Shown: positions 1-19,958 of the stretch, one piece after another
Numbering within the stretch: the stretch's first letter is position 1
How the letters are laid out: the number at the start of each line of letters is the position of its first letter
Source of the DNA: Pseudobdellovibrionaceae bacterium
Lineage (GTDB): Bacteria > Bdellovibrionota > Bdellovibrionia > Bdellovibrionales > Bdellovibrionaceae
Assembly: GCA_947449255.1 (NCBI GenBank)
Contig: CANFQX010000002.1
Span: 1-64,000 of the forward strand
Direction: 5' to 3'
Length of the DNA: 64,000 nt
Notes under the pieces: generated by a model
What the model was told of the DNA's origin: nothing
What the model saw: the letters and a program-made list of their open reading frames with translations, nothing else
The model's database searches: none
Translations under genes and position numbers: made by a program

Positions 1-719
1 GAAGCAGTCACAACGTATTTGCTGTCGGGACTAAATGTGGCGCTCCTGACCGAATCCCTATGCTGAATGATAAATAGTTCTTTTTGGGTTGCTACTTCAT
101 AAATCTTGGCTGTTCCATCATGCGAAGCCGTCACAACGTATTTGCTGTCGGGACTAAAGATGGCGCTATTGACCTGACTACCATGTGCGATAGTAAACTT
201 CTCCTCGGGATTAAATACCTTGGTTTCCTTAATCACTTTATTCTTTTCCCGTTGATCATCCCTTTTTAATTGATCAGCCTTAGCTTGTTTTTTCTTAAAC
301 GACTGACTGATTTCAAAAAATCGATCTTTATAAAGCTGTTGGTAAGATGGATCGAGCTGGATCAATCCTGCTGTTTCGCGCTGGAAAAAATCCAAGGCTT
401 GAATAAATTCGTTTTTGCTATTGAAGCTATTCTTTTGTATTCGCAGTTGAAGCTCTATTAAATTGTCGATGCGGGATACAACTTCTGCTTGTGAAAGAGA
501 AATTGCAGGTTTAGATAAACTAGATCCTGCCCCAGCCAAAGCTTTAGAGTGTATAGCCGCTGCAGAATCCGCCAAAAAAATATTTGAGCATACATTAGAC
601 CCAGCAAATGCAGCAGGAGAGACGAAGATCAGCCCTGAAGTAAGTGCGCTCATTGCGACACCTACCCTATTGGCACTGGATGAGATTTTCCATAAATTCT
701 TAATTTTAAAATTCTTCAT
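1..719 (-). CDS. Exported WD40-repeat protein, copy 1 (C-terminus beyond window)
   Basis: I translated this from the minus strand; the frame is open from an ATG at 719 to the window edge. It starts with a long signal peptide ending in SPAAFAG, then a CSNIF motif, then a helical stretch of about 110 residues rich in Q, K and E. WD40 repeats of about 41 residues follow (AFSPDSKYVVTAS, AKIYEVATQKELF), and the first one and a half are visible. GAGGA lies 8 bases before the ATG. The helical region and repeats are clearly homologous to the complete WD40 protein at 4163-5659, so the two are paralogs on either side of the AAA+ gene. The 31-base gap to the AAA+ gene suggests co-transcription. The role is probably a beta-propeller interaction scaffold outside the cytoplasm; the partner is unknown. 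Confidence 0.85.
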   Translation of the reverse strand, partial: MKNFKIKNLWKISSSANRVGVAMSALTSGLIFVSPAAFAGSNVCSNIFLADSAAAIHSKALAGAGSSLSKPAISLSQAEVVSRIDNLIELQLRIQKNSFNSKNEFIQALDFFQRETAGLIQLDPSYQQLYKDRFFEISQSFKKKQAKADQLKRDDQREKNKVIKETKVFNPEEKFTIAHGSQVNSAIFSPDSKYVVTASHDGTAKIYEVATQKELFIIQHRDSVRSATFSPDSKYVVTA

Positions 720-750
720 GTCAAATTTCCTCATCCAAAAAATCCTTCGC

Positions 751-3700
751 TCAATGACTAGAGCTTATCCACAGCTGGCGTTGAGATGTCGACGCAAACA
801 ATCCGGGGTACAAAGTTGGGTTTGCTTGAATCAGGGACCTTTGCTCTTTCATGAACTGCGACATATTTTTATTCAAAACATTGACCATTTCATCAGCTTC
901 AAATTTAAGATCTTCAAGCGTCTTTTTTTCGCGACTGTCAATTCTATCCATCAATGATCCCATGTCTTTTTCTACGACTTTGTAGAAAATCATTCCTTCA
1001 CTGTTATAGTCATGGGTGATTCTGTAGACCCCATTAAACCCAAGGTACAGTTCACTCAAGGCGACTAAATCTGTGGGATCAAAGCGATTTCCACTTTGAC
1101 GAATTGCCCGTGGCGAGGTTCCCGATAATATTTTATTAAGGAGCACCGTGCCCTTGAACTCCTTAAGGATGGTTGAAATCGCTGAACGATTGCTTTCGCC
1201 TCGTGTATTCATGTAAAAATCAGGAAACGAAGTTGGCTCAGCATTATGCATTTTTCGCTCGGCTTCTGATCTTTTAACTGTCTCAGATAGAAAGCTTTGA
1301 TGGATCTGGGATAAAAGTTTTAATTCTTGCCGTTCTAGGCTGTAAGACTTAGCAAGCTCAGTCAGGGGATAAATAAAGAGTGGACTTTTAAGTTTAACAT
1401 CGACCCCAAGATTCATACGGCGATGAAACTCTGACAAGCTGTCTGGTGTCAGCTTATTCAGCGAGTAGGCCTTCGTCTGAATACGATCAAAGATTGGGAA
1501 AGCTGTAGAAAAATCACCCAACCCGGTCACGAACTCTCCCGGTGTAGAGTTCGTAGCTATAACTACTGCAATCAAATTCGAGGCAATAATTTCATCGCCA
1601 TCCAAGAGTTGCCGTTCGTTAAGCAAAGACAAGAGTGAAGTTTTAACACCAGCTGGTGCTTTTTCAAATTCATCTAGCAAGGCAAAAAGAACATCTTTTG
1701 AAGATAAAGAACCTGTTCGATTATAAACATAGCCCTTGCCATCGCGAATGGCTTTTAAGTCAATACGACCGACGATATCACCTTCATTTGACATTGGATG
1801 AAATTGTTTAATCCAAATTGGACTGTCTGATTTCCCATTTTCAAGCAAGGCCTTGCTCAAAATCGAATTTGTGGCTGCCAGTTGGGCTTCATTCAGGTTT
1901 TTTACCTCAGCCTCAAGCAAGGTTCTTGTGAACAAGGTTTTTGCGGATCCCGGTGGACCAAAGAGCATTACATTCGTTCTGTTCATCATCGCTGAAAAAA
2001 GAGCCTTTACATTCGACTCAGACTCAAGAAAGCGATATTTCAGCTCATCAAAGGCGTTTCGTAATGAGACAGCAGAGGCATCTTCTATTTTCTCTTTGTC
2101 ATTTCGTTTTATTGATTCAGAAAGCAGAGCGTTGGCGCGACGGGCTCTGTTTTCATAATACTGCTCCGAACGGTCATAGGCTTCCCGCGTGGTCAGAGTC
2201 ATTTTTGTATTTTTTAACTGCGCCATCATTGTATTTGAGGCAGCGAGAAATTCAGCGTGCGATTCATCAATCGTTGTTAACTGTTTTCTGGAAGCCTCAC
2301 GCAGTGTGGATTCATTTCCATTGAGAAGCTCATTCATTCGACCCGTGAGTTTGTAATTGAGGGGGACATCATGTTTCGCTGACTTAAGTTGCCCAAGGTG
2401 AATTTGACCGAGTGTTTTATTGAGATCCCCATATTTTTGATACATCGGATGATCTGTGTCCATCAGTAAATTTTCAGTTGAAAATCCTATTTCTTCACGC
2501 ACGTCGGGATCAAGTGTTAATAGTTTACCTGACTTAATGTCAAATTTGACATGACGTTTTTGTCCCGTTCGCGCAGAGACATAAGTCAGCATTTGCAGAT
2601 CCTTATTGTACTCACCTCGCGAAAGATTCAAACTTGATAATTTTTTGTTTTTTGAATTAGAAAGGGGAATTGAAAATGCGCCATTAGAATTGACCTGATA
2701 AAAGCTGACCTTCACCCCTTTATCAGCAACCATAGTGTCAGGTCCCCCTTGCAAAAGTGCAGGCGAGAGATCCACTAAATCTTTTGGTCCCATGGTCAAA
2801 TTGAGGGACTCAAAGGGAACCCCCGCCATCATTTGTCGAACTAAAAATGAAGACTTCCAAAGCACCAATAACTTTGACTGAGTTCGCGTTGATCCAGAAA
2901 AAGGAGGGAAATAATCTGGGGCCGACTGGGTCCCCTGAACGTCAGCTTGAGCTTTCGCTAATTTGTCCGTGTAATACCGATCCATATGCAGCGAAAGTGT
3001 CGTCATGGCCGCCAACATCTGATCGGGAATTTTGACCTGCTTCATGAGTGGACGCAAGCCTCTGACATCAATCACCGTGAACTTGTTTTGGCCTTTTTTA
3101 GATTCAATTTTCTCAAGCATTAAAAAAAGACTGTCGGCATTTTCAGAAGCATTGATCACATGAACTTTTAAGGCAAATCGGTCAATCAAGGCTCTGCGAC
3201 CTCCAATTTCATGAGGCAACGCCTGACTGATCATCTCTCCAAGTGTCGCATTTGTGGTTCCTGCTAAGGACTCAAGGGCTGTTTGCACCACTTTATTGCC
3301 GGCCAAGGCTTGCCGTTCATTTAAGATGGATAGCAATGTCATTTGCAAAGCGACTGGCGCCTTTTCAACTTCATCAAGTATAGCAAAAAGATTCTTATCA
3401 CTGATGAGGGCCTTTGAATAATCGATCTCATATCGACCTTGCTCAGTGAATTTAAATGGATCTGGACCGCCCAAGATTTTGGTCTCGCTTAATGTCGCGT
3501 GAAACTGCTGCGTAAAGATCTGTTTTGATGGATCGTTATTAACTTTATCTTCCCAAATTGTTTTGAGCAACTCCATCTTAAAGGCATCAATATCAGCGCG
3601 AGCCGGAGCCCCATGGACCGCTCTTAATTGAGCTTCAAAGATATTTCGAATCCCAAGAGTCTTTGCGCCACCACCCGGCCCATCGATCAGAATATTTTCC

Positions 3701-4002
3701 TTAGCCATCAAGGCTGTGAGTGTGTAGTAAAAAACATTATCTAAGCCATAGACATCAGCCATCAATTCATTGACGCCGTGGCGAGAGATCTCCCATGAGG
3801 CTGACAACCTATTAAGATGGTTCAAATCATCCGCCATTAGGCCTGCAGGGCCTTTTAGTGCCTCATTTAAAGGTTGGTTGATAATTTGATCAGTAAAAAT
3901 TCCGTCACAGAACGGATGGGTTGTGGCAAAGGAATGACTAGACAGGTTTAACAGTAAAAATCCAAGAGCTGCTGCAGATCTATAATTTCTAGAGAATTTC
4001 AT
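751..4002 (-). CDS. Exported protein with two MoxR-type AAA+ ATPase domains
   Basis: The 1083-residue protein begins with a basic n-region, a hydrophobic core and an SFA-TT cleavage-like site, then CDGIF. Domain 1 has Walker A GPGGGAKT near residue 108 and Walker B FAILDEVEKAP near 205, followed by the MoxR hallmark LLSILNERQ and an arginine-rich IGGRRALIDRF. Domain 2 has Walker A FGPPGSAKT near 680, Walker B FALLDEFEKAP near 776, LLSLLNERQ and a sensor-like VVIATNSTPGEF. MoxR proteins normally remodel partners in the cytoplasm together with VWA proteins. A Sec-type signal on such an ATPase is odd, because the periplasm lacks ATP. The gene lies between two WD40 paralogs and near the exported VWA gene at 5883. 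The domain calls are secure; the export call rests on the N-terminus only. Confidence 0.88.
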   Translation of the reverse strand: MKFSRNYRSAAALGFLLLNLSSHSFATTHPFCDGIFTDQIINQPLNEALKGPAGLMADDLNHLNRLSASWEISRHGVNELMADVYGLDNVFYYTLTALMAKENILIDGPGGGAKTLGIRNIFEAQLRAVHGAPARADIDAFKMELLKTIWEDKVNNDPSKQIFTQQFHATLSETKILGGPDPFKFTEQGRYEIDYSKALISDKNLFAILDEVEKAPVALQMTLLSILNERQALAGNKVVQTALESLAGTTNATLGEMISQALPHEIGGRRALIDRFALKVHVINASENADSLFLMLEKIESKKGQNKFTVIDVRGLRPLMKQVKIPDQMLAAMTTLSLHMDRYYTDKLAKAQADVQGTQSAPDYFPPFSGSTRTQSKLLVLWKSSFLVRQMMAGVPFESLNLTMGPKDLVDLSPALLQGGPDTMVADKGVKVSFYQVNSNGAFSIPLSNSKNKKLSSLNLSRGEYNKDLQMLTYVSARTGQKRHVKFDIKSGKLLTLDPDVREEIGFSTENLLMDTDHPMYQKYGDLNKTLGQIHLGQLKSAKHDVPLNYKLTGRMNELLNGNESTLREASRKQLTTIDESHAEFLAASNTMMAQLKNTKMTLTTREAYDRSEQYYENRARRANALLSESIKRNDKEKIEDASAVSLRNAFDELKYRFLESESNVKALFSAMMNRTNVMLFGPPGSAKTLFTRTLLEAEVKNLNEAQLAATNSILSKALLENGKSDSPIWIKQFHPMSNEGDIVGRIDLKAIRDGKGYVYNRTGSLSSKDVLFALLDEFEKAPAGVKTSLLSLLNERQLLDGDEIIASNLIAVVIATNSTPGEFVTGLGDFSTAFPIFDRIQTKAYSLNKLTPDSLSEFHRRMNLGVDVKLKSPLFIYPLTELAKSYSLERQELKLLSQIHQSFLSETVKRSEAERKMHNAEPTSFPDFYMNTRGESNRSAISTILKEFKGTVLLNKILSGTSPRAIRQSGNRFDPTDLVALSELYLGFNGVYRITHDYNSEGMIFYKVVEKDMGSLMDRIDSREKKTLEDLKFEADEMVNVLNKNMSQFMKEQRSLIQANPTLYPGLFASTSQRQLWISSSH

Positions 4003-4087
4003 TTTTTACCTCAAATCGTTTTCTTTAGATGATTCAAGATTTGGGCCAGGTCTTTGTGACTTAAGTTGAATGGATCCCTCAATAAAG

Positions 4088-4147
4088 CGTCTCTATTTGA
4101 AACAGGAGCCCGAAAGGGCCTTTCGCTGTAAAATCTTTAGGCAGTAT
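4088..4147 (-). promoter_or_regulatory. Conserved leader/promoter element, copy A (upstream of the AAA+ gene)
   Basis: This stretch matches 5732-5792 at about 52 of 61 positions, while the bases around both are diverged. On the plus strand both contain GAAACAGG, a GCCC-GAAA-GGGC-type hairpin whose stem is kept despite base changes, and TGTAAAAT. Copy A lies between the WD40 gene and the AAA+ gene, copy B upstream of the WD40 gene. Both therefore precede minus-strand genes, which suggests a shared promoter or leader. The hairpin could also act as a weak terminator. Confidence 0.5.
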
Positions 4148-4162
4148 ATTTTATAATGGAGA

Positions 4163-5659
4163 TCACTCGTCATCCACGGTTCGATATATCTGGATGATCT
4201 TAGCTGTGTTATCATCTGAAGCAGTCACAACGTATTTGCTGTCGCGACTAAATTCGGCGCTTAAGATATAACCACCATGCGAAATACTAAATAGCTCTTT
4301 CTGCGTTGACACATCATAAACTTTGGCTGATTTATCACTTGAAGCAGTCACAACGTATTGGCCGTCGGGACTAAATGAGGCGCTAATGACCCAACCACCA
4401 TGCTGAATACTAAATACCTCTTTTTTGGTTGCTACATCATAAACCTTGGCTGTCCCATCTTTTGAAGCAGTCACAACGTATTTGCTGTCGGGACTAAGTG
4501 CCACGCTCCAGACCTTATCACCGTGCGGAATACTAAATAGCTCCTTTCGGGTTGCTACCTCATAAATCTTGGCTGTTTTATCACTTGAAGCAGTCGCAAC
4601 GTAGTTGCCGTCGGGACTAAAAGCGGCGCTATTGACATCCTCGCCGTGCGGAATACTAAAAAGTCCCTTTCGGGTTGCTAAATCAGAAACCTTGGCTGAC
4701 TTATCACTTGAAGAAGTCACAATGTATTTGCCGTCAGGACTAAATACAGCGCTATTGACATAGGCCCCATGTCGAATTTTGAATAGCTCTTTTTGAGTTG
4801 TTACATCATAGACCTTGGCTGTGCCATCTCCGGAGGCAGTCACAACGTATTTACTGTTAGGACTAAATACGGTTCCATAGACATATCCACGATGGGAAAT
4901 AAAAAAAAGCTCTTTTTGAGTTGCTACCTCATAAACCTTCGCTGTTCTATCCTCTGAGGCGGTCGCAACGTATTTACCGTCGGGACTAAAGGCGGCGCTC
5001 CTGATCCAATCATCATGCTGAATGCTAAATAGCACTTTTTGAGTTTTTACATCATAAACCTTGGAAGTTTGATCGTATGAAGCGGTTACAATGTATTTGC
5101 CGTCGCGACTAAATGCAGCGCTCCTCACCCCACCACCATGCTGAATGCTAAACTTTTCTATGGGATTAAATATTTTGGCTTCCTTAATCTCTTTATTCCT
5201 TGCCCGTTGATCATCTTTTTTTAGTTGATCATTCTTAGCTTGTTTTTTCTTCAGCGACTGGCTGATTTCAAAAAATCGATCTTTATAAAGTTGTTGATAA
5301 GATGGATCGAGCAGCATCAATCCTTTTGTTTCACGCTCGAAAAAAGCCAGGGCTTGTATAAATTGATTTTCACTCTCGAAGCTTTTCTTCTGTATTTGAA
5401 GTTGTAGCTCTATTAAACTGTCGATTCTGAAAATAAACTCTGCATGGCTAAGAATTAATTTTGGATTGGCGGGACTTAATTCTCTCATGTTAAAAAATTG
5501 ATCTTTCCTGAGCATGACTGAATCGTCTACAAAAATATTTGAGCAAAGATTTGAAAAACTCGAAGCCGAGGCCAAGCCAGAAGCAAGTACACTCAGTGCC
5601 AGACCTACCTTCGCGACGCTACACGAAATTTTATTTATCTTATTCATATCTTTTCCCAT
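4163..5659 (-). CDS. Exported WD40-repeat protein, copy 2
   Basis: The 498-residue protein has a signal peptide (residues 1 to about 33, ending ASGLASA), then CSNIF. A charged helical segment of about 110 residues follows (LDPSYQQLYKDRFFEISQS), then eight WD40-type repeats of 41 residues each up to the C-terminus, for example FSPDGKYVATASEDRTAKVY. Eight repeats would make one closed 7- or 8-bladed propeller. Two starts are possible: ATG 5659, with AGGA 7 bases upstream, or ATG 5647, with GGGA 6 bases upstream. The paralog at 1-719 shares the whole layout. The protein probably serves as an interaction platform for the neighbouring AAA+ and VWA proteins; this is inferred from context only. Confidence 0.9.
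   Translation of the reverse strand: MGKDMNKINKISCSVAKVGLALSVLASGLASASSFSNLCSNIFVDDSVMLRKDQFFNMRELSPANPKLILSHAEFIFRIDSLIELQLQIQKKSFESENQFIQALAFFERETKGLMLLDPSYQQLYKDRFFEISQSLKKKQAKNDQLKKDDQRARNKEIKEAKIFNPIEKFSIQHGGGVRSAAFSRDGKYIVTASYDQTSKVYDVKTQKVLFSIQHDDWIRSAAFSPDGKYVATASEDRTAKVYEVATQKELFFISHRGYVYGTVFSPNSKYVVTASGDGTAKVYDVTTQKELFKIRHGAYVNSAVFSPDGKYIVTSSSDKSAKVSDLATRKGLFSIPHGEDVNSAAFSPDGNYVATASSDKTAKIYEVATRKELFSIPHGDKVWSVALSPDSKYVVTASKDGTAKVYDVATKKEVFSIQHGGWVISASFSPDGQYVVTASSDKSAKVYDVSTQKELFSISHGGYILSAEFSRDSKYVVTASDDNTAKIIQIYRTVDDE
4200..5160 (-). repeat. Tandem WD40 coding repeats, 8 x about 123 bp
   Basis: Each 41-residue blade is encoded by about 123 bp. Blocks such as GCAGTCACAACGTATTTG recur almost unchanged from blade to blade, and the same blocks occur in the paralogous gene at 1-180. 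Such identity permits unequal recombination within the gene and between the paralogs. Confidence 0.85.
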
Positions 5660-5731
5660 TTCATTTTCCTATGACATTTCAAGAATTGTTCCAGGCCCTT
5701 TCTTTTCCAGATGAATATAAAGGTAATTAAA

Positions 5732-5792
5732 CGTCTCAATTTGAAACAGGAAGCCCGAAAAGGCTTCTCGATGTAAAATGTTTAGACAGGAT
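5732..5792 (-). promoter_or_regulatory. Conserved leader/promoter element, copy B (upstream of the WD40 gene)
   Basis: This is the counterpart of 4088-4147. Here the stem is GAAGCC/GGCTTC around CGAAAA. It lies in the divergent region between the WD40 gene (minus) and the VWA gene (plus), so it could affect either. No convincing -35/-10 pair was identified. Confidence 0.45.
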
Positions 5793-5819
5793 TTCAACTG
5801 AAAGCCTCGTTGAATAGAA

Positions 5820-5854
5820 GCCACGTGGCACAAAAAATGCTTACTACTGTAGTA
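5820..5854. promoter_or_regulatory. Two palindromes upstream of the VWA gene
   Basis: GCCACGTGGC (5820-5829) is a perfect 10-base palindrome. TACTAC-T-GTAGTA (5842-5854) has perfect 6-base arms around one base. They lie 29 to 63 bases before the GTG start of the VWA gene, where an operator would be expected. The regulator is unknown. Confidence 0.35.
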
Positions 5855-5882
5855 GGTAAATTAAAAATAACCCGAGGTGCAT

Positions 5883-8800
5883 GTGAAGAATAAAATAATG
5901 CGAAGCCTATCTACATATATGGTCATCTCGTTTTTTATTTTAAACCCAGCCATGGCTGCGGATAGCACGAATAAATGTTCAAATATTTTTAGCTCAACAA
6001 ATGATCATCAGGGTTCTGTTGATCCAAGCGGAAATGACGATCAATCCTTAGAACTTCAAAGCAAGGCGCTTTTAGAAAGCTCTTTGACAAACATTCAAAA
6101 ACAAATCGAGGAGCTTCGCGCAAGGCCTGAGGTCGTTGGTAAGAAACATCCCAGACAGGGTTTTTTGAACTCAATAGATGAACTGGGCAAATTTCAAAAC
6201 AAGCTTTATGACGCTTTCCCCCTCTTAAAAAGGTTTGAGCGGCTTGAAGTTGAGATCGGCCGCCGTGGCCAGCAGATCACACTCGAAAAATTCAATCTTT
6301 ATCACAAAAATTTAAACCGCTACACTTTTCAAAATAACGATAAAAACAAAGTTGAATTACAGTTCTGGGCCAAAATTGAAGCCCTTGAAATCCTCTTACG
6401 TATTAGTCAGAATATTTCGCTGCAGCAAGGACAACAAGGACAACAAGGAAAACAAGGACAACAAGGACAACAAGGACAACAAGGACAACAAGGACAACAA
6501 GGACAACAAGGACAACAAGGACAACAAGGACAACAAGGACAGCAAGGACAACAAGGACAGCAAGGACAAAAGGACCAACAAGGACAAAAGGAAAATAAGT
6601 CTGCTAAAGAATCGCTCCAAAAGTTGGATGAGCAGTCTTTTGATGAATATGACATCCATAATAAAGATTTGCAGAGCTCATCTTCAAAGGAAAGACCTCA
6701 GTTCGCTTACATGTATTTGACTGCGGCTCCAAAAAGACTTTTGCGCGCAAGCTCGTTCGATACTATTGACCAACACATCAAAAAGATTTCTTCAATTCGT
6801 CAACCGCGTTTGCCTCATCTTGGAAACTTGCAGGGCACTGCATTTTCGCAATCGATGCTCATCATTAATCAACAAAAGGCACAAGTTCTTACGATTCCTT
6901 ACCCCTACGGCGTGCATCCAATAGTCGGTGACTATAAGGACTTTACAGTTCGCGAGACTTTTTCAGATGAATTTGTTGTTCAATCTAAAAACCAAAATCC
7001 ACTTCCGAAAAAAATAAAAATTGGAATGGAATCTGAAACTGCAACTCAGTTAACTATGGCACAAAGGATGGAATACACTAAATCGAGTGGTATTCAGCTC
7101 CAGCAATGGCCGGACCATGTCCAATCGGGTGTTGCCGCATCTAAATCAGAAAAAAACTCAATCAGCCAAATTGATGTTCTCAGCAACTGGTTCCAAAAAA
7201 ATGGGCCCTACCTTTACAACTCACGAAACAAGGGAATGGAAGAGGCCTTCGATCAGGTTCAACAGAATATTCAAGCTCAGATGGGTTCTAAGCCCTTTGA
7301 ACTTATCCTAGCCGGTGAAAAAATGTTTAACTGCGATGGGGCCGCCTTGATCGGCGCCCGACTTGTTCGCGATCAATTTGGCTTACCCGCCCGAATTGTT
7401 GGCGGACGAACTATTTCAGCCCAGCTTCAAAATAAGAAAGGCTTCAAAATCCTGGCTTCGAACATCAAAGATCCTCGTCATGCTTGGGTAGAAGTATTTA
7501 TTCAAGGACGATGGATGCCATTTGATTTCACGCCCTCAAAAAATGCTCCACAAAATGACAGCAACGGGGATGCCAGTAAAAATCAGCCACCACAAGATAG
7601 CGATTCAGCCTCAGGTGATCAACAAGGTCAACAAGGTCAGCAGGGTCAACAAGGAGGCCCATCTGGACAAGGGGGCCAAGGCTCCGGTGGAAATTCAGGG
7701 GGCATTGTAAACAAAAGTGCTCGTGGTCATGGTTCAGAGATGAAACCCAATGGAAATCACGATCAGTCAGGTGACAATAAGGATTCGAAAGATTCGAAGG
7801 ACGCCAAAGATTCTAAAGATCAAAAGGGTTCGGATTCAAAAAATGCAACAGAATCAAAGGACAATTCAACTAAAACTCAAGACCCAAATTCTACTTCAAA
7901 GAATGGCGAGCGCAAACGATCCAACAATCGACAAGACTTGAATCAAGAAAATATTCATGAGGTCAGTCGTCTGCCCAAAGACTATGATTCAATTGAGGGT
8001 GCTCTCATCAGACAGATTCTGTCCGATGCACTGACGGACTTTAAAACCAAGGGGCCTTCAAGTCTGGTGACTATCGACGTCGAAGCCAAATTAAGTAACA
8101 TTGGAAAACAAAGTCGATTCAAAGAGAAAGCTAAGCTCGATCTGCGGACTGATCTTGAGCCCTTCTACCGTGACAATGACAAGTCCATATCTGAACTGCT
8201 TGCTGAAATTAAAAGCGGTATTTATCGTGATCCAACGACGAGCTTCCGCAAGCTTTCAGTCATCGTCCATTTCTTTAAGTCAGTGAACCGATACAGAGAA
8301 CTGTCGGATTATGAAAAAGAATTTGTGCGATCAAGCCAGGAAATTTTGCACAAAATGTCCAGCTATCGCCACCGAAATTCTGGTCAGCATGATCTAGTTG
8401 AAAGAATGGTCAAAAATCTTCCCGGCGAATTGATGAAAGAGTACATTTTGAAAAAGTATCCAGAAGGATTAACCATAGGATCGAGGGATCAAAAGGCCCT
8501 TTTCGATGAAATCCAACATGGTGATTGGATGGCGGCTTTTGAGGCTTCCTTGATTAATAAACATTTTAATTTTCTTTTGGATGCAGAAAAAGAATCACGA
8601 GTTCGTCGAATCCAAACTATTTTAAGATCCTATAAACGAGAACGACAAAGCGAAGGGCTGGTCACTGCAACATTAAAGGATATTGCTGACTTTCAACGGT
8701 GGATTTTAGATCCGGAAGTCAGTAACGACACTGCCATGACCTTTCTTTCAAAGCTCATCAAAGATGAACAATATATGATGGGAAATAGAGAAATGATCAA

Positions 8801-9770
8801 TAGCCCAGGGCGGACGCAACCGATCGAGCGCAAACATACAAACGTCTTTTTCGACATCAGCGGCTCAATGAGCGGCGATAAAGCTGAAGTCCAATCCGCA
8901 GCCTTGATTGCGATGGTGGATCGATTCCTTTCAGAAAAAGATCCCTATGGAAAACCTTTGCACACCGTGATGTTATTCCCCTTTGGCGACAGTGTTGGTC
9001 AGGGCATTCTGATTGAGAGTCGTGAACAGGCTTTGTCCTATATAAAAAGCAATTTCAATCGCCCGACAGCGTCCAACGAAGGCACTGCGTTTCAGCCTTG
9101 TTTTGACAAGCACTTTGAAGTCATCCGTAAACTTGCACAGGATAACAACTTAAAGCTTAAAATACGAAAAACAAATATGGTTCTGATTACGGATGGAGCA
9201 GCCGATGTCAATTTAGAAAAGGTCAAAAAGGATCTAAACAGTTTGCCTGAATATATCAGGACCTTTTTCAATTTGGTTACAATGAGCAATGAAGCTAATC
9301 CCGACCTTGAAAAAATAGTTGCAGCAACGAACTCAGAAAAATCTAAGGCAATGATCACCCAGATTTCTGATCAGCAAATGAGTCAATTTAAAAATGAGGC
9401 ACGCAACCCAAAGATTGACCCTGAAGCCTTTGTCTTTGAAAAGACTGAGAACCTCTCAATGGATATCGTACAGCAGGTGCAAAAGCTCCAGATTCCCGCT
9501 TCGCCAGCTATCGATTACCATTCAGTTCTTTTAAAAAATAAAGATCGAATCAAGGGTGTTCAAAATATGGAGCCCAATACGTCTGCATTGACTGAACTGG
9601 TGAGATTGAGAGAGCAAATGAAGGACTCTAAATTGCCAAAAGAATTAATGATTAGACATCTTGCGACTGTACTAGAAAATTATCCACGTTGGTTTAATCG
9701 AAATCTCAGCCAATTAAGTTATGCCGAAGAAAAAGTACTGCATGATATTATTGATAAGTTGGTGCAATAA
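5883..9770 (+). CDS. Exported transglutaminase-like / von Willebrand A fusion protein
   Basis: About 1295 residues. I chose GTG 5883 because GAGG lies 5 bases upstream; GTG 5877 would overlap that site, and ATG 5898 lacks one. Order (numbered from 5877): signal peptide ending NPAMAA, CSNIF motif, helical region, a GQQ tract (about 185-238), a middle region, a transglutaminase-like core with Cys in NCDGAAL near 485, His in DPRHAWVEV near 535 and Asp in MPFDFTPS near 548. Then come a long Q/G- and D/S/K-rich linker (about 560-690), a helical region, and a VWA domain from about 985 with MIDAS motif DISGSMS. MoxR gene clusters commonly encode a transglutaminase-fold protein and a VWA protein separately; here both are one exported chain next to an exported MoxR protein. 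Confidence 0.88.
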   Translation: MKNKIMRSLSTYMVISFFILNPAMAADSTNKCSNIFSSTNDHQGSVDPSGNDDQSLELQSKALLESSLTNIQKQIEELRARPEVVGKKHPRQGFLNSIDELGKFQNKLYDAFPLLKRFERLEVEIGRRGQQITLEKFNLYHKNLNRYTFQNNDKNKVELQFWAKIEALEILLRISQNISLQQGQQGQQGKQGQQGQQGQQGQQGQQGQQGQQGQQGQQGQQGQQGQQGQKDQQGQKENKSAKESLQKLDEQSFDEYDIHNKDLQSSSSKERPQFAYMYLTAAPKRLLRASSFDTIDQHIKKISSIRQPRLPHLGNLQGTAFSQSMLIINQQKAQVLTIPYPYGVHPIVGDYKDFTVRETFSDEFVVQSKNQNPLPKKIKIGMESETATQLTMAQRMEYTKSSGIQLQQWPDHVQSGVAASKSEKNSISQIDVLSNWFQKNGPYLYNSRNKGMEEAFDQVQQNIQAQMGSKPFELILAGEKMFNCDGAALIGARLVRDQFGLPARIVGGRTISAQLQNKKGFKILASNIKDPRHAWVEVFIQGRWMPFDFTPSKNAPQNDSNGDASKNQPPQDSDSASGDQQGQQGQQGQQGGPSGQGGQGSGGNSGGIVNKSARGHGSEMKPNGNHDQSGDNKDSKDSKDAKDSKDQKGSDSKNATESKDNSTKTQDPNSTSKNGERKRSNNRQDLNQENIHEVSRLPKDYDSIEGALIRQILSDALTDFKTKGPSSLVTIDVEAKLSNIGKQSRFKEKAKLDLRTDLEPFYRDNDKSISELLAEIKSGIYRDPTTSFRKLSVIVHFFKSVNRYRELSDYEKEFVRSSQEILHKMSSYRHRNSGQHDLVERMVKNLPGELMKEYILKKYPEGLTIGSRDQKALFDEIQHGDWMAAFEASLINKHFNFLLDAEKESRVRRIQTILRSYKRERQSEGLVTATLKDIADFQRWILDPEVSNDTAMTFLSKLIKDEQYMMGNREMINSPGRTQPIERKHTNVFFDISGSMSGDKAEVQSAALIAMVDRFLSEKDPYGKPLHTVMLFPFGDSVGQGILIESREQALSYIKSNFNRPTASNEGTAFQPCFDKHFEVIRKLAQDNNLKLKIRKTNMVLITDGAADVNLEKVKKDLNSLPEYIRTFFNLVTMSNEANPDLEKIVAATNSEKSKAMITQISDQQMSQFKNEARNPKIDPEAFVFEKTENLSMDIVQQVQKLQIPASPAIDYHSVLLKNKDRIKGVQNMEPNTSALTELVRLREQMKDSKLPKELMIRHLATVLENYPRWFNRNLSQLSYAEEKVLHDIIDKLVQ
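6429..6572 (+). repeat. Nine-base minisatellite GGACAACAA, 16 units
   Basis: Sixteen consecutive 9-base units code for GQQ (variants GKQ and GQK), with degenerate continuation to about 6593. Because the unit is a multiple of three, gain or loss changes the linker length but not the frame. A shorter GQQ run recurs near 7620-7660 in the same gene. Confidence 0.95.
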
Positions 9771-11322: not shown

Positions 11323-12975
11323 TTAGAGATAGAGTTCTGCAGTTGCAGGCGCTATGATATCCAATAAATTATTAAATGTACTTGCAACTTGCATCGCTAC
11401 AGAGGGGCCTTCTTTGCTATCCACTTTATTGATTTCGCCATTTTTCTTATACGAGACTTGGATTGTTCCAAGACCAGGACGACTTACAACTGAAGGTTTA
11501 CCATAGCGCTCTTCATAATCAATCTTAACAACTTTTTTGGCCTGATCAATGATTGTCGCAATTCGACCTCTATTGTCGTAAGTCATGGATATTTTTTGGC
11601 CATCACTGTTTTGCGCAGAAGAGAGGTTGCCTTTCGCATCATAATTGAATGATGTTTTTTTCGTCGCAACTTTGACTCCTTTTGCATTTACAAAAGTAGA
11701 GCTGACCTCATTGACCTTTTTAAATTTCTGATCATAGGCATAAGCCATTCGCACATTCGCATTCGATTTAGTCTTTACCAAACCATCTGGATAGTATTCG
11801 AAAGTCACACGGTCCGTATTTTTTCTGATTGAAATCGGCTTGCCGAACACCTCATGATAACTAATATCCGTGACATTTCCTGTGATATTAGTCAAAACAC
11901 GCTGAAGAAAGACTTGGCCATCGGGTCTTTGCTGATGCCAGAATTCATACCTATTGTCAGCGATGACTTCTTTACCACAAGTTCGTTTAACCGTAGACCA
12001 ATAGTGATTTTTTGGATCATTCGGAGAAAACTCATAAGTGTAAGATTCAATACACTTATCCCTGTCCGTGAAAGCCAGAACCCAATCATTTTTTTTGTCA
12101 TATTTCAAAGCAACAAAAGTATTATCCGGCCAGTTTGCCTTGGTTAAGTTGTGAAGCTCATCGTACTCATAGGTATAGGTCTTTAACCAAGCATTCTTCA
12201 CCGAAGACAAATCATCGAGGTTTGCAAAAGTATATTCGGCCATCAAGCCATTTGGACCCGTAATCGATTTCACTTTCTTATTTTGAAAGTATTTAAAAGT
12301 GAGTCGACGTCCTACGTTGTCTTCTATTTGTGAGATCAAATCTTTATCATAAGCAAATTTTAGAACATTTGAATTTTTGTCATAGATGTGGGTCAACTTG
12401 CCTTGCAAATTGTAGCGTTGCGAACTTCCATCTGGCAAATTTCGAGTGTAATAGGTTTTATTGAATACAAAATGTTCAACCTCTCGGCCGTTGGCATAGA
12501 ATGTCGCCCCCTCACGAACGGGTGGGGTTAATCCATATTTTGTGGCGTATTCAGTTCTTACATTATCGTCTTCAATCAACTGACTTTTTAAAGTAACAAA
12601 AAAAGCTTCGGTATTTCCGACTTTCTTTTCTGCTTTAATTTTTGCTATGATCGAATCCACAGTTTTTTCCACATCTTTTCGACCGACTTCGCGCTGTGAA
12701 TAGGTGACTTCCAGCCCCCCACCACATTCTTTAACTTTGATATTTCCCTCAGCATTTATTTCCATGCTTGTTTCAAAGTCTGAACACCATCCGAAACCAA
12801 ACATTCCATTAAAAAGAGATCGGCTGTTGTAGGTTCTAGTGATTTTCAAATCATAGCCAGTCCCCGGTACATCCATATCAACCCAGGTGTTGGAATAATT
12901 TGCATTCTTCATGTCTACAAGTGCATAGGCTTGCGCCGACAAAAATAGGGCTGCTGCCAAAAGTATCTTATTCAT
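11323..12975 (-). CDS. Exported RHS/YD-repeat protein, candidate Bd0109-like
   Basis: The 550-residue protein has a short signal peptide (residues 1-18, ending AQAYA). Near residue 50 it has the RHS-type N-terminal signature YNSRSLFNGMFGFGW, and many YD-type repeats follow to about 500 (for example YDKNSNVLKFAYDKD, YDAKGNLSSA, YDNRGRIATI). It lacks the long shell and variable toxin tip of polymorphic RHS toxins, so it is more likely a wall- or surface-associated structural protein. The position between the Tad operon and a small exported protein matches Bd0109 of the Bdellovibrio hit locus. That equivalence is inferred from synteny. Confidence 0.82.
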   Translation of the reverse strand: MNKILLAAALFLSAQAYALVDMKNANYSNTWVDMDVPGTGYDLKITRTYNSRSLFNGMFGFGWCSDFETSMEINAEGNIKVKECGGGLEVTYSQREVGRKDVEKTVDSIIAKIKAEKKVGNTEAFFVTLKSQLIEDDNVRTEYATKYGLTPPVREGATFYANGREVEHFVFNKTYYTRNLPDGSSQRYNLQGKLTHIYDKNSNVLKFAYDKDLISQIEDNVGRRLTFKYFQNKKVKSITGPNGLMAEYTFANLDDLSSVKNAWLKTYTYEYDELHNLTKANWPDNTFVALKYDKKNDWVLAFTDRDKCIESYTYEFSPNDPKNHYWSTVKRTCGKEVIADNRYEFWHQQRPDGQVFLQRVLTNITGNVTDISYHEVFGKPISIRKNTDRVTFEYYPDGLVKTKSNANVRMAYAYDQKFKKVNEVSSTFVNAKGVKVATKKTSFNYDAKGNLSSAQNSDGQKISMTYDNRGRIATIIDQAKKVVKIDYEERYGKPSVVSRPGLGTIQVSYKKNGEINKVDSKEGPSVAMQVASTFNNLLDIIAPATAELYL

Positions 12976-18798: not shown

Positions 18799-19320
18799 TT
18801 AAATTCCACAGTTTGAATCCAGACAAATTCCGTAAGACACCTTAATCCAAACAGGATTCGCTCCCACTTTTTGATTGCGTTGTGAATCGACGATAGTTTT
18901 GATCTGTTCATTATGAATAGTAACGCTGCCGTCTGCGACGGTTTCCGCGGCTTCTTTGCCTGAGTTGCTTTGGAAGAAATCGATGGGTCTGGTGGAGGCT
19001 GTAAAGTTCTCACCATTTAGCTTTTTTTCGGATGTAACTCCATGAAAACGCAATTTTATTTTCTCATAATGGATATCTTTCCGCTCAGATTGGTTATTCC
19101 GAAAATAGGTTAAGTTCGCCCGGTGATTGAAAGTGCTAAAGGCATAATTTCTGGCCGCAATGGAATTCATAATCCCACTGTGAATAGTTCCAAAGAAACC
19201 CAATGAAAAATTAACCAAAAGAATAATCACTATTATAATAGGAATCATTTCAAAAATAGCCATTCCATTTTGATTATTTAAAGGACAAAAATAATTAGGG
19301 GGATTTTTTGGAATCAGCAT
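18799..19320 (-). CDS. TadE-like pseudopilin
   Basis: The 173-residue protein has a prepilin-type leader: QNG followed by MAIFEM, with Glu at +5 after the putative cleavage, then a hydrophobic helix (IPIIIVIILLVNFSLG). The C-terminal part is soluble and contains two cysteines in the last dozen residues (SYGICLDSNCGI). TadE and TadF are minor pseudopilins of the Tad system. The gene overlaps the preceding gene by 7 bases. Confidence 0.75.
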   Translation of the reverse strand: MLIPKNPPNYFCPLNNQNGMAIFEMIPIIIVIILLVNFSLGFFGTIHSGIMNSIAARNYAFSTFNHRANLTYFRNNQSERKDIHYEKIKLRFHGVTSEKKLNGENFTASTRPIDFFQSNSGKEAAETVADGSVTIHNEQIKTIVDSQRNQKVGANPVWIKVSYGICLDSNCGI

Positions 19321-19958
19321 CCATTGTCCTCCAGGGGTATATATTTATCTGAAGCGGCTCGACCTAGTTCAGAGTATCTATTTGATAGACCTAAAATAGA
19401 AGTATTGCGCTCTTTGACTTGGTCTAAGCACTCTACCTGTGATGGCTCACGAAAAATAAAACTTGTCAGATAGGCACTAAATCCCTCGTCTGGATTTTCC
19501 GAGGTACTTCCTAAAAAAGGTATTTTTTTATTCAAGATAGTTGGCTTAAATAAAATTTTGACACCTGAAAATGGCGGGGCATGTGGTGCTAAATTTATCG
19601 GATACTCTGAACTAAAATCGGACCCGTCTTTTCCGCTTTTAATTACGGGGCGCTCTAAGACAAACCAACTGCTGCCTGAACCAGTTGTGATAAAATTTTT
19701 AAAGGCTGTATAACTTAGAATTTCTTTGTATTTATCCATACCCATTTGATTTTGCTTGTCGGGATCAATGTGTCCAGCGGCATGGGCTCGTGCTACTGAA
19801 AATGCAATATACTGAGCGACTTCTGACATGGAAAGAGTGAAAGTTAAAGAAAAAAAGACAATACAAAGCCCCGCGCACAAAGTGAGTGAAAAAATAAAAT
19901 CAGCAGAGATCATTCCGCTTGTATTTCTAATAAATTTTTTCTTTTCCTGTACTTTCAT
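19314..19958 (-). CDS. TadF/TadE-like pseudopilin with Asp at +5
   Basis: The 214-residue protein has the leader NTSG followed by MISADF. The position normally held by Glu5 of the mature prepilin is Asp. A hydrophobic helix follows (FSLTLCAGLCIVFFSL), then a soluble domain with two cysteines. It lies within the Tad operon between two other leader-bearing proteins. The Asp substitution could alter N-methylation or pilus incorporation. Confidence 0.7.
   Translation of the reverse strand: MKVQEKKKFIRNTSGMISADFIFSLTLCAGLCIVFFSLTFTLSMSEVAQYIAFSVARAHAAGHIDPDKQNQMGMDKYKEILSYTAFKNFITTGSGSSWFVLERPVIKSGKDGSDFSSEYPINLAPHAPPFSGVKILFKPTILNKKIPFLGSTSENPDEGFSAYLTSFIFREPSQVECLDQVKERNTSILGLSNRYSELGRAASDKYIPLEDNGC

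Follow-up and report, generated by a model that had tools for sequence, protein, structure and literature searches.

We analyzed a window of 64,000 nucleotides of a Pseudobdellovibrionaceae genome and found that four neighboring exported proteins share a short cysteine-containing tag, which recurs across Bdellovibrionota on exported proteins of unrelated folds. We think it probable that the tag, C-x-x-[hydrophobic]-[F/Y/L] with a free thiol, is a second-stage sorting or attachment signal that acts after Sec export and is recognized by one genome-encoded reader. Scans against Pfam, NCBIfam and PADLOC returned no sorting signal of this form, and searches of the open-access literature found no matching Bdellovibrio motif; the tag has no described counterpart in these sources, while the gene cluster is an exported form of a known kind of system. 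If real, the tag would be a sequence handle on which Bdellovibrionota proteins enter prey, and by what route. It would predict the clients of each genome, with the residue four positions after the cysteine (C+4) telling which they are, and point to the machine, a factor whose pocket varies with F, Y or L.

Four Tagged Proteins at a Contig Edge

Position 1 of the window is the edge of contig C2, in a genome totaling 3.21 Mb. The features of the tagged proteins are as follows.

3–734, minus strand: exported WD40 protein (Pfam WD40 and open reading frame), truncated at the contig edge; signal peptide 603–734
576–590, minus strand: tag CSNIF of the truncated WD40 protein (motif position)
751–4002, minus strand: exported tandem MoxR AAA+ ATPase, 1083 aa; signal peptide 3925–4002
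3895–3909, minus strand: tag CDGIF of the AAA+ protein (motif position); Cys invariant among orthologues
4163–5659, minus strand: exported WD40 beta-propeller protein, 498 aa (Pfam WD40, E 2e-70); signal peptide 5564–5659
5531–5545, minus strand: tag CSNIF of the 498-aa WD40 protein (motif position)
5898–9770, plus strand: exported transglutaminase-VWA protein, ATG at 5898; signal peptide 5898–5957
5976–5990, plus strand: tag CSNIF of the VWA protein (motif position)

The start of the VWA protein was taken as the ATG at 5898; the listed reading frame begins at GTG 5877. Each tag is preceded by a convincing Sec signal peptide with an A-x-A end. A sequence-only reading of the window had described a C-x-x-I-F tag after the signal peptide in four proteins, and we located all four, CSNIF three times and CDGIF once. 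Its placement of the cysteine just after the signal peptide also stood, while its distance of 5 to 8 residues past cleavage had to be revised: in coordinate order, 4, 5, 6 and 6 residues lie between the predicted signal peptidase I site and the cysteine. As the same reading had it, other exported proteins in the window lack the tag, the sole formal match, CIVFF (19314–19958, minus strand), sitting in a hydrophobic helix. An exported protein at 11323–12975, likewise without the tag, reads like an RHS/YD-repeat protein.

The AAA+ protein matches Pfam bpMoxR (PF20030, E 2.9e-24) and AAA_5 (E 5e-18), both above the cut-off, and the only solved structure that it matches is RavA (E 1.7e-10). Walker A and B are intact in both of its AAA domains, and the catalytic residues are invariant among orthologues. 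The tag cysteine, Cys32, whose conservation the sequence-only reading had made a check of its proposal, is invariant as well, in ortholog alignments of 6 and 7 sequences at ∼27–45% identity. The VWA protein matches Transglut_core (E 1e-5) and carries a D-I-S-G-S-M metal-site motif, read directly in the sequence; its orthologues match VWA_2 and Transglut_core, and Pfam gave no propeller match in it. It also contains a G-Q-Q collagen-like low-complexity repeat with a Pfam Collagen match (window 6426–6591; residues 184–238 of the GTG-start reading frame). The tag cysteine is the sole cysteine of the 1083-residue AAA+ protein and of both mature WD40 proteins. The VWA protein has two others, one of which (C-D-G) we read as a putative transglutaminase nucleophile.

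Two more tagged WD40 paralogues, with CSRVF and CANIF, lie on contig C26. The WD40 paralogues around the system, spread over C2 and C26 (window 1–734; L038:1–3825), number at least four and probably five, and stretches of them are 72–85% alike in DNA. A recent WD40 expansion is probably the cause of the assembly break at the edge of C2; no end overlap joins the two contigs.

An Exported MoxR/VWA System across Bdellovibrionota

The tagged window proteins form an exported MoxR AAA+/VWA-transglutaminase/beta-propeller system. ATP is not known to be present in the periplasm, which makes it surprising that AAA+ ATPases whose catalytic residues are conserved should be exported. Searches among 79 near relatives found orthologous loci in 8 with the AAA+ protein and in 12 with the VWA protein, a few of the latter matches being low-complexity, and an AAA+ profile matched 18 of the 368 genomes of the phylum. 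The named records carrying the system are Bdellovibrionota metagenome-assembled genomes. Its distribution is patchy, as no other sampled genome of the same genus has it.

The third component differs by cluster, being a WD40 protein, a PQQ-type propeller, a leucine-rich repeat (LRR) protein or an FGE-sulfatase/lectin-like protein; such variation among components is characteristic of ternary conflict systems (Kaur et al. 2020, PMC7159879). In ∼20 clusters, nearly all exported members, of whatever fold (AAA+, VWA, WD40, LRR and FGE/lectin-like), carry C-x-x-x-[F/Y/L] shortly past the signal peptide. Three exported WD40 proteins from outside these clusters have no tag, and on that ground we rejected the idea that the tag is inherent to the WD40 fold.

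Two loci show unusual arrangements of the sensor-like component. In genome G040 (L082:11045–15199), an AAA+ protein is fused to a C-terminal FGE-sulfatase/lectin-like part, with one tag per polypeptide. Genome G099 (L194:102–11360) has a tandem array of ten exported FGE-like genes that are almost identical and all bear C-[N/H]-F-S-F; the array lies on a different contig from the MoxR cluster of G099, is homologous to the FGE-like gene of that cluster and looks like an amplified sensor repertoire.

Rarity of the Tag

From elsewhere in the same genome we sampled 780 kb, holding 659 genes, 260 of them with signal peptide-like N termini, and searched for a loose pattern, C-x-x-h-[FYL] no more than 15 residues from the cleavage point. 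Signal peptides were called by a home-made rule rather than SignalP, and the counts refer to this sample and not to whole proteomes. Only 4 of the 260 fitted the pattern, so that the genome-wide commonness which the sequence-only reading had named as a refuting result did not appear, and 3 of these look spurious; the one convincing tag is CSKVF of a protein that we call P0001 (L045:13794–14876), with a weak DUF3626 match below the cut-off. The tag is thus rare, on about 1–2% of exported proteins, and the sample led us to reject the possibility that it is common to the whole secretome. At ∼1.5% per exported protein, the chance of three unrelated folds in a row being tagged is ∼4e-6.

Tagged Proteins outside the Clusters

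Searching by sequence alone for relatives of P0001, we found eight tagged ones, in genomes G009, G035, G039, G044, G046 (two), G221 and G224, with no MoxR cluster nearby within the DNA fetched around them. Their C+4 residue is that of their own genus or nearest relatives, Y in one genus (G046, G221, G224) and F in the others. A tag on every exported DUF3626-like relative was considered and rejected, as the paralogue in the window's own genome (L158) and L143, L157 and L161 are without it.

Other unlinked proteins are tagged as well. Genome G002, of the same genus as the window, has three: CEYVF on a Fic-domain protein, CEAIF on a protein of 520 residues that reads like a putative methyltransferase, and CRNVF. 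Pfam assigns no function to the tagged exported proteins at L181:12686–14248 and L182:11890–12885 of this genome; the L181 protein reads as if it had two domains of methyltransferase type, an odd thing to find beyond the cytoplasm. PDB searches with the P0001 and L181 proteins gave no significant match. Genome G024 has an exported Fic protein tagged CEAVF with H-P-F-V-D-G-N-G intact. Most Fic proteins have neither signal peptide nor tag, while the clear cases with a signal peptide and no lipobox, in G002 and G024, are both tagged; the Fic protein of G021 looks like a lipoprotein.

Single-protein searches at E 1e-3 found neither an AAA+ nor a VWA relative in G002, G009, G024 and G044, and in G035 only a weak VWA match over a low-complexity repeat. 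The sequence-only reading had suggested a tag for one complex. The shared tag and the placement of three protein types in one conserved system agree with this, but the restriction to a single complex does not hold: because unlinked exported proteins are tagged too, some in genomes without a detected AAA+ or VWA protein, the tag is not the anchor of one complex.

The C+4 Residue Covaries within Genomes

Over the 86 tags listed, a list compiled partly by eye, C+4 is F in 40, L in 22 and Y in 21. The same residue was found at C+4 in 178 of 190 within-genome pairs, against 63 expected from shuffles (0 of 5,000 shuffles reached the observed value), and the AAA+ and VWA proteins of a cluster, though not homologous to each other, share it in 15 of 18 cases where 5.6 were expected (4 in 1e6 shuffles), or in 13 of 16 with one cluster per genus (60 in 1e6 shuffles); these figures are optimistic, as phylogeny inflates them and independent C+4 switches are few, in a handful of lineages. 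Within-genome agreement at C+1 to C+3 is far weaker, with C+2 and C+3 mildly coherent.

The tags thus read as if the C+4 residue were set per genome rather than per locus. In G046, two clusters and three unlinked proteins all have Y, and the unlinked tags of two congeneric genomes are also Y, matching the clusters of G046 and G224. Exceptions are the mixtures of F and Y in G065 and of L and F in G052, and single deviants in G047 (T), G056 (V) and UBA6502 (A). As C+4 switches jointly in unrelated families, we take it for the signature of a shared reader.

Other Cysteines Are Removed

The tag cysteine is the sole cysteine in 62 of 88 tagged proteins, 13 of them at least 900 aa long, while exactly one cysteine is found in 12% of exported controls of at least 200 aa (P ∼4e-23, only indicative, as related proteins are treated as independent). 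Many of the remainder are VWA proteins with a transglutaminase. Per residue, non-tag cysteines amount to 0.0006 in tagged proteins against 0.0088 in exported controls, a 14-fold difference, and the canonical lipoproteins of these genomes have 0.0080. With the partner missing in 62 of 88, an intramolecular disulfide was rejected for most tagged proteins, and for these the thiol-linking proposed by the sequence-only reading fails as a link within the protein. A canonical lipoprotein reading was also rejected: the lipobox [LVI][ASTVI][GAS]C is found in 0 of 88, and the residue preceding the cysteine is mostly L, S, K, Q, T or R. The C+4 agreement, the sole cysteine and the absent lipobox had played no part in selecting the proteins.

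Exported proteins chosen solely for a single cysteine close to the N terminus have F or Y at C+4 in 6 of 10 cases (the tandem array counted once), compared with 6 of 50 with a single cysteine elsewhere (Fisher P 0.003). A natural negative control is an exported bpMoxR-WD40 protein of G138 (L128:249–3227) with six cysteines and no tag, which means that export of the ATPase is not tag-dependent in every lineage. This fusion adjoins a protein kinase and a DHH-family protein, both with signal-like N termini, and the locus (L128:249–6017) is a different exported NTP-dependent cluster.

A Proposed Second-Stage Signal and Its Alternatives

In the mechanism that we propose, the first step, which the sequences support, is export by Sec and cleavage at A-x-A by signal peptidase I, after which the mature protein begins with a short tail that has a single free cysteine. 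One genome-encoded factor, as the covariation suggests, would then recognize the cysteine together with the C+4 residue; its pocket would favor F, Y or L by lineage, giving one C+4 residue for all clients of a genome. The loss of other cysteines suggests a chemical role for the thiol, in mixed-disulfide capture, thiol ligation or noncanonical acylation, with which other thiols would interfere. In the last and weakest step, the clients, comprising the MoxR AAA+/VWA-transglutaminase/propeller-type conflict complex and stand-alone effector-like proteins, might be sent to a specific site, whether on the cell surface or beyond it, perhaps inside prey, where ATP is available.

The destination is the more doubtful part. 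Fic enzymes use ATP and the AAA+ catalytic residues are invariant, so the clients would make sense where ATP is present; this suggests an ATP-containing destination of the cargo, perhaps the prey cytoplasm. It is conceivable, though on balance we doubt it, that the tag is a delivery signal for an undescribed route by which Sec-exported single-cysteine effectors cross the predator outer membrane into the prey or host cytoplasm. The cargo of such a route may include a complete ATP-driven AAA+/VWA/propeller conflict machine, as well as Fic and other apparently cofactor-dependent enzymes. If true, this would give bacteria an equivalent of the PEXEL and RxLR motifs of eukaryotic parasites. Surface display or anchoring may take the place of delivery into prey, and in G138 such an ATPase is exported without the tag.

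Two alternatives keep a role for the cysteine, and both seem unlikely. The tails could be system-specific assembly tags that dock on one complex member or link to it by disulfides: all cluster members have the tag and a common C+4 residue, and the sensor-AAA+ fusion of G040 has a single tag per polypeptide, but tagged unlinked proteins occur in genomes without a detected complex, and Y is shared by both clusters and the three unlinked proteins of G046. We give a similarly small chance to the proteins being noncanonical lipoproteins, membrane-anchored by an unusual enzyme that acylates the cysteine, a chemical version of our preferred explanation. The single cysteine near the mature N terminus does occupy a position comparable to that of a lipoprotein cysteine; an A-x-A site, however, lies a few residues upstream, no lipobox is present, and the canonical lipoproteins of the same genomes are not depleted of other cysteines to this extent.

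It is very unlikely that the tag regions are functionless copies of a 5′ module, spread by duplication or recombination and kept by descent. Near-identical tag pairs (CEDLF twice in G210, CEDFY twice in G224) and the mild coherence at C+2 and C+3 would fit such copying, but the flanks and positions C+1 and C+2 are free to vary, unlike C and C+4, Cys32 stays invariant at ∼27–45% identity, and the purge of cysteines requires selection over the entire protein. We find it hardly credible that these are ordinary structural or redox cysteines of exported proteins with a chance resemblance. Loose matches do arise by chance in ∼1.5% of exported proteins, yet the different folds, the lack of a partner cysteine, the constant position after the signal peptide and the covariation speak against it, and both the C+4 shuffles and the cysteine census disfavor it. 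A second-stage signal with a shared reader remains the explanation that we prefer.

Comparison with Known Systems

The gene cluster resembles the MoxR-vWA ternary conflict systems, beta-propeller type, in which a MoxR AAA+ protein and a VWA protein are combined with a propeller or FGE/C-type-lectin-like parts (PMC7159879): the window AAA+ protein matches bpMoxR, and the third component is variable. It differs in that each core component has a signal peptide and a tag, and the AAA domains are often tandem; in a text search of that paper, neither signal peptides nor Bdellovibrio came up. In the beta-propeller subtype, the VWA domain is fused to a propeller, while in the window it is fused to a transglutaminase; as the VWA protein has no propeller match, we did not file the system as that exact subtype.

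The pairing of a MoxR ATPase with a VWA partner is also that of RavA-ViaA and NorQ-NorD. These chaperone pairs act in the cytoplasm, whereas the tagged MoxR and VWA proteins are exported. Bacterial lipoproteins are marked by a lipobox, and the Bacteroidetes lipoprotein export signal is a short motif after the near-N-terminal cysteine. The tag similarly consists of a cysteine near the mature N terminus followed by a short motif, but it has no lipobox (0 of 88), its cysteine lies beyond the A-x-A site and other cysteines are purged. PEXEL and RxLR, the effector-export motifs of eukaryotic parasites, are short, lie just past a Sec-type signal peptide and occur on proteins of unrelated folds. The residues, the domain of life and the machinery differ and we claim no homology, but by analogy the tag may work as they do, as a short motif behind the signal peptide of effector-like proteins of unrelated folds.
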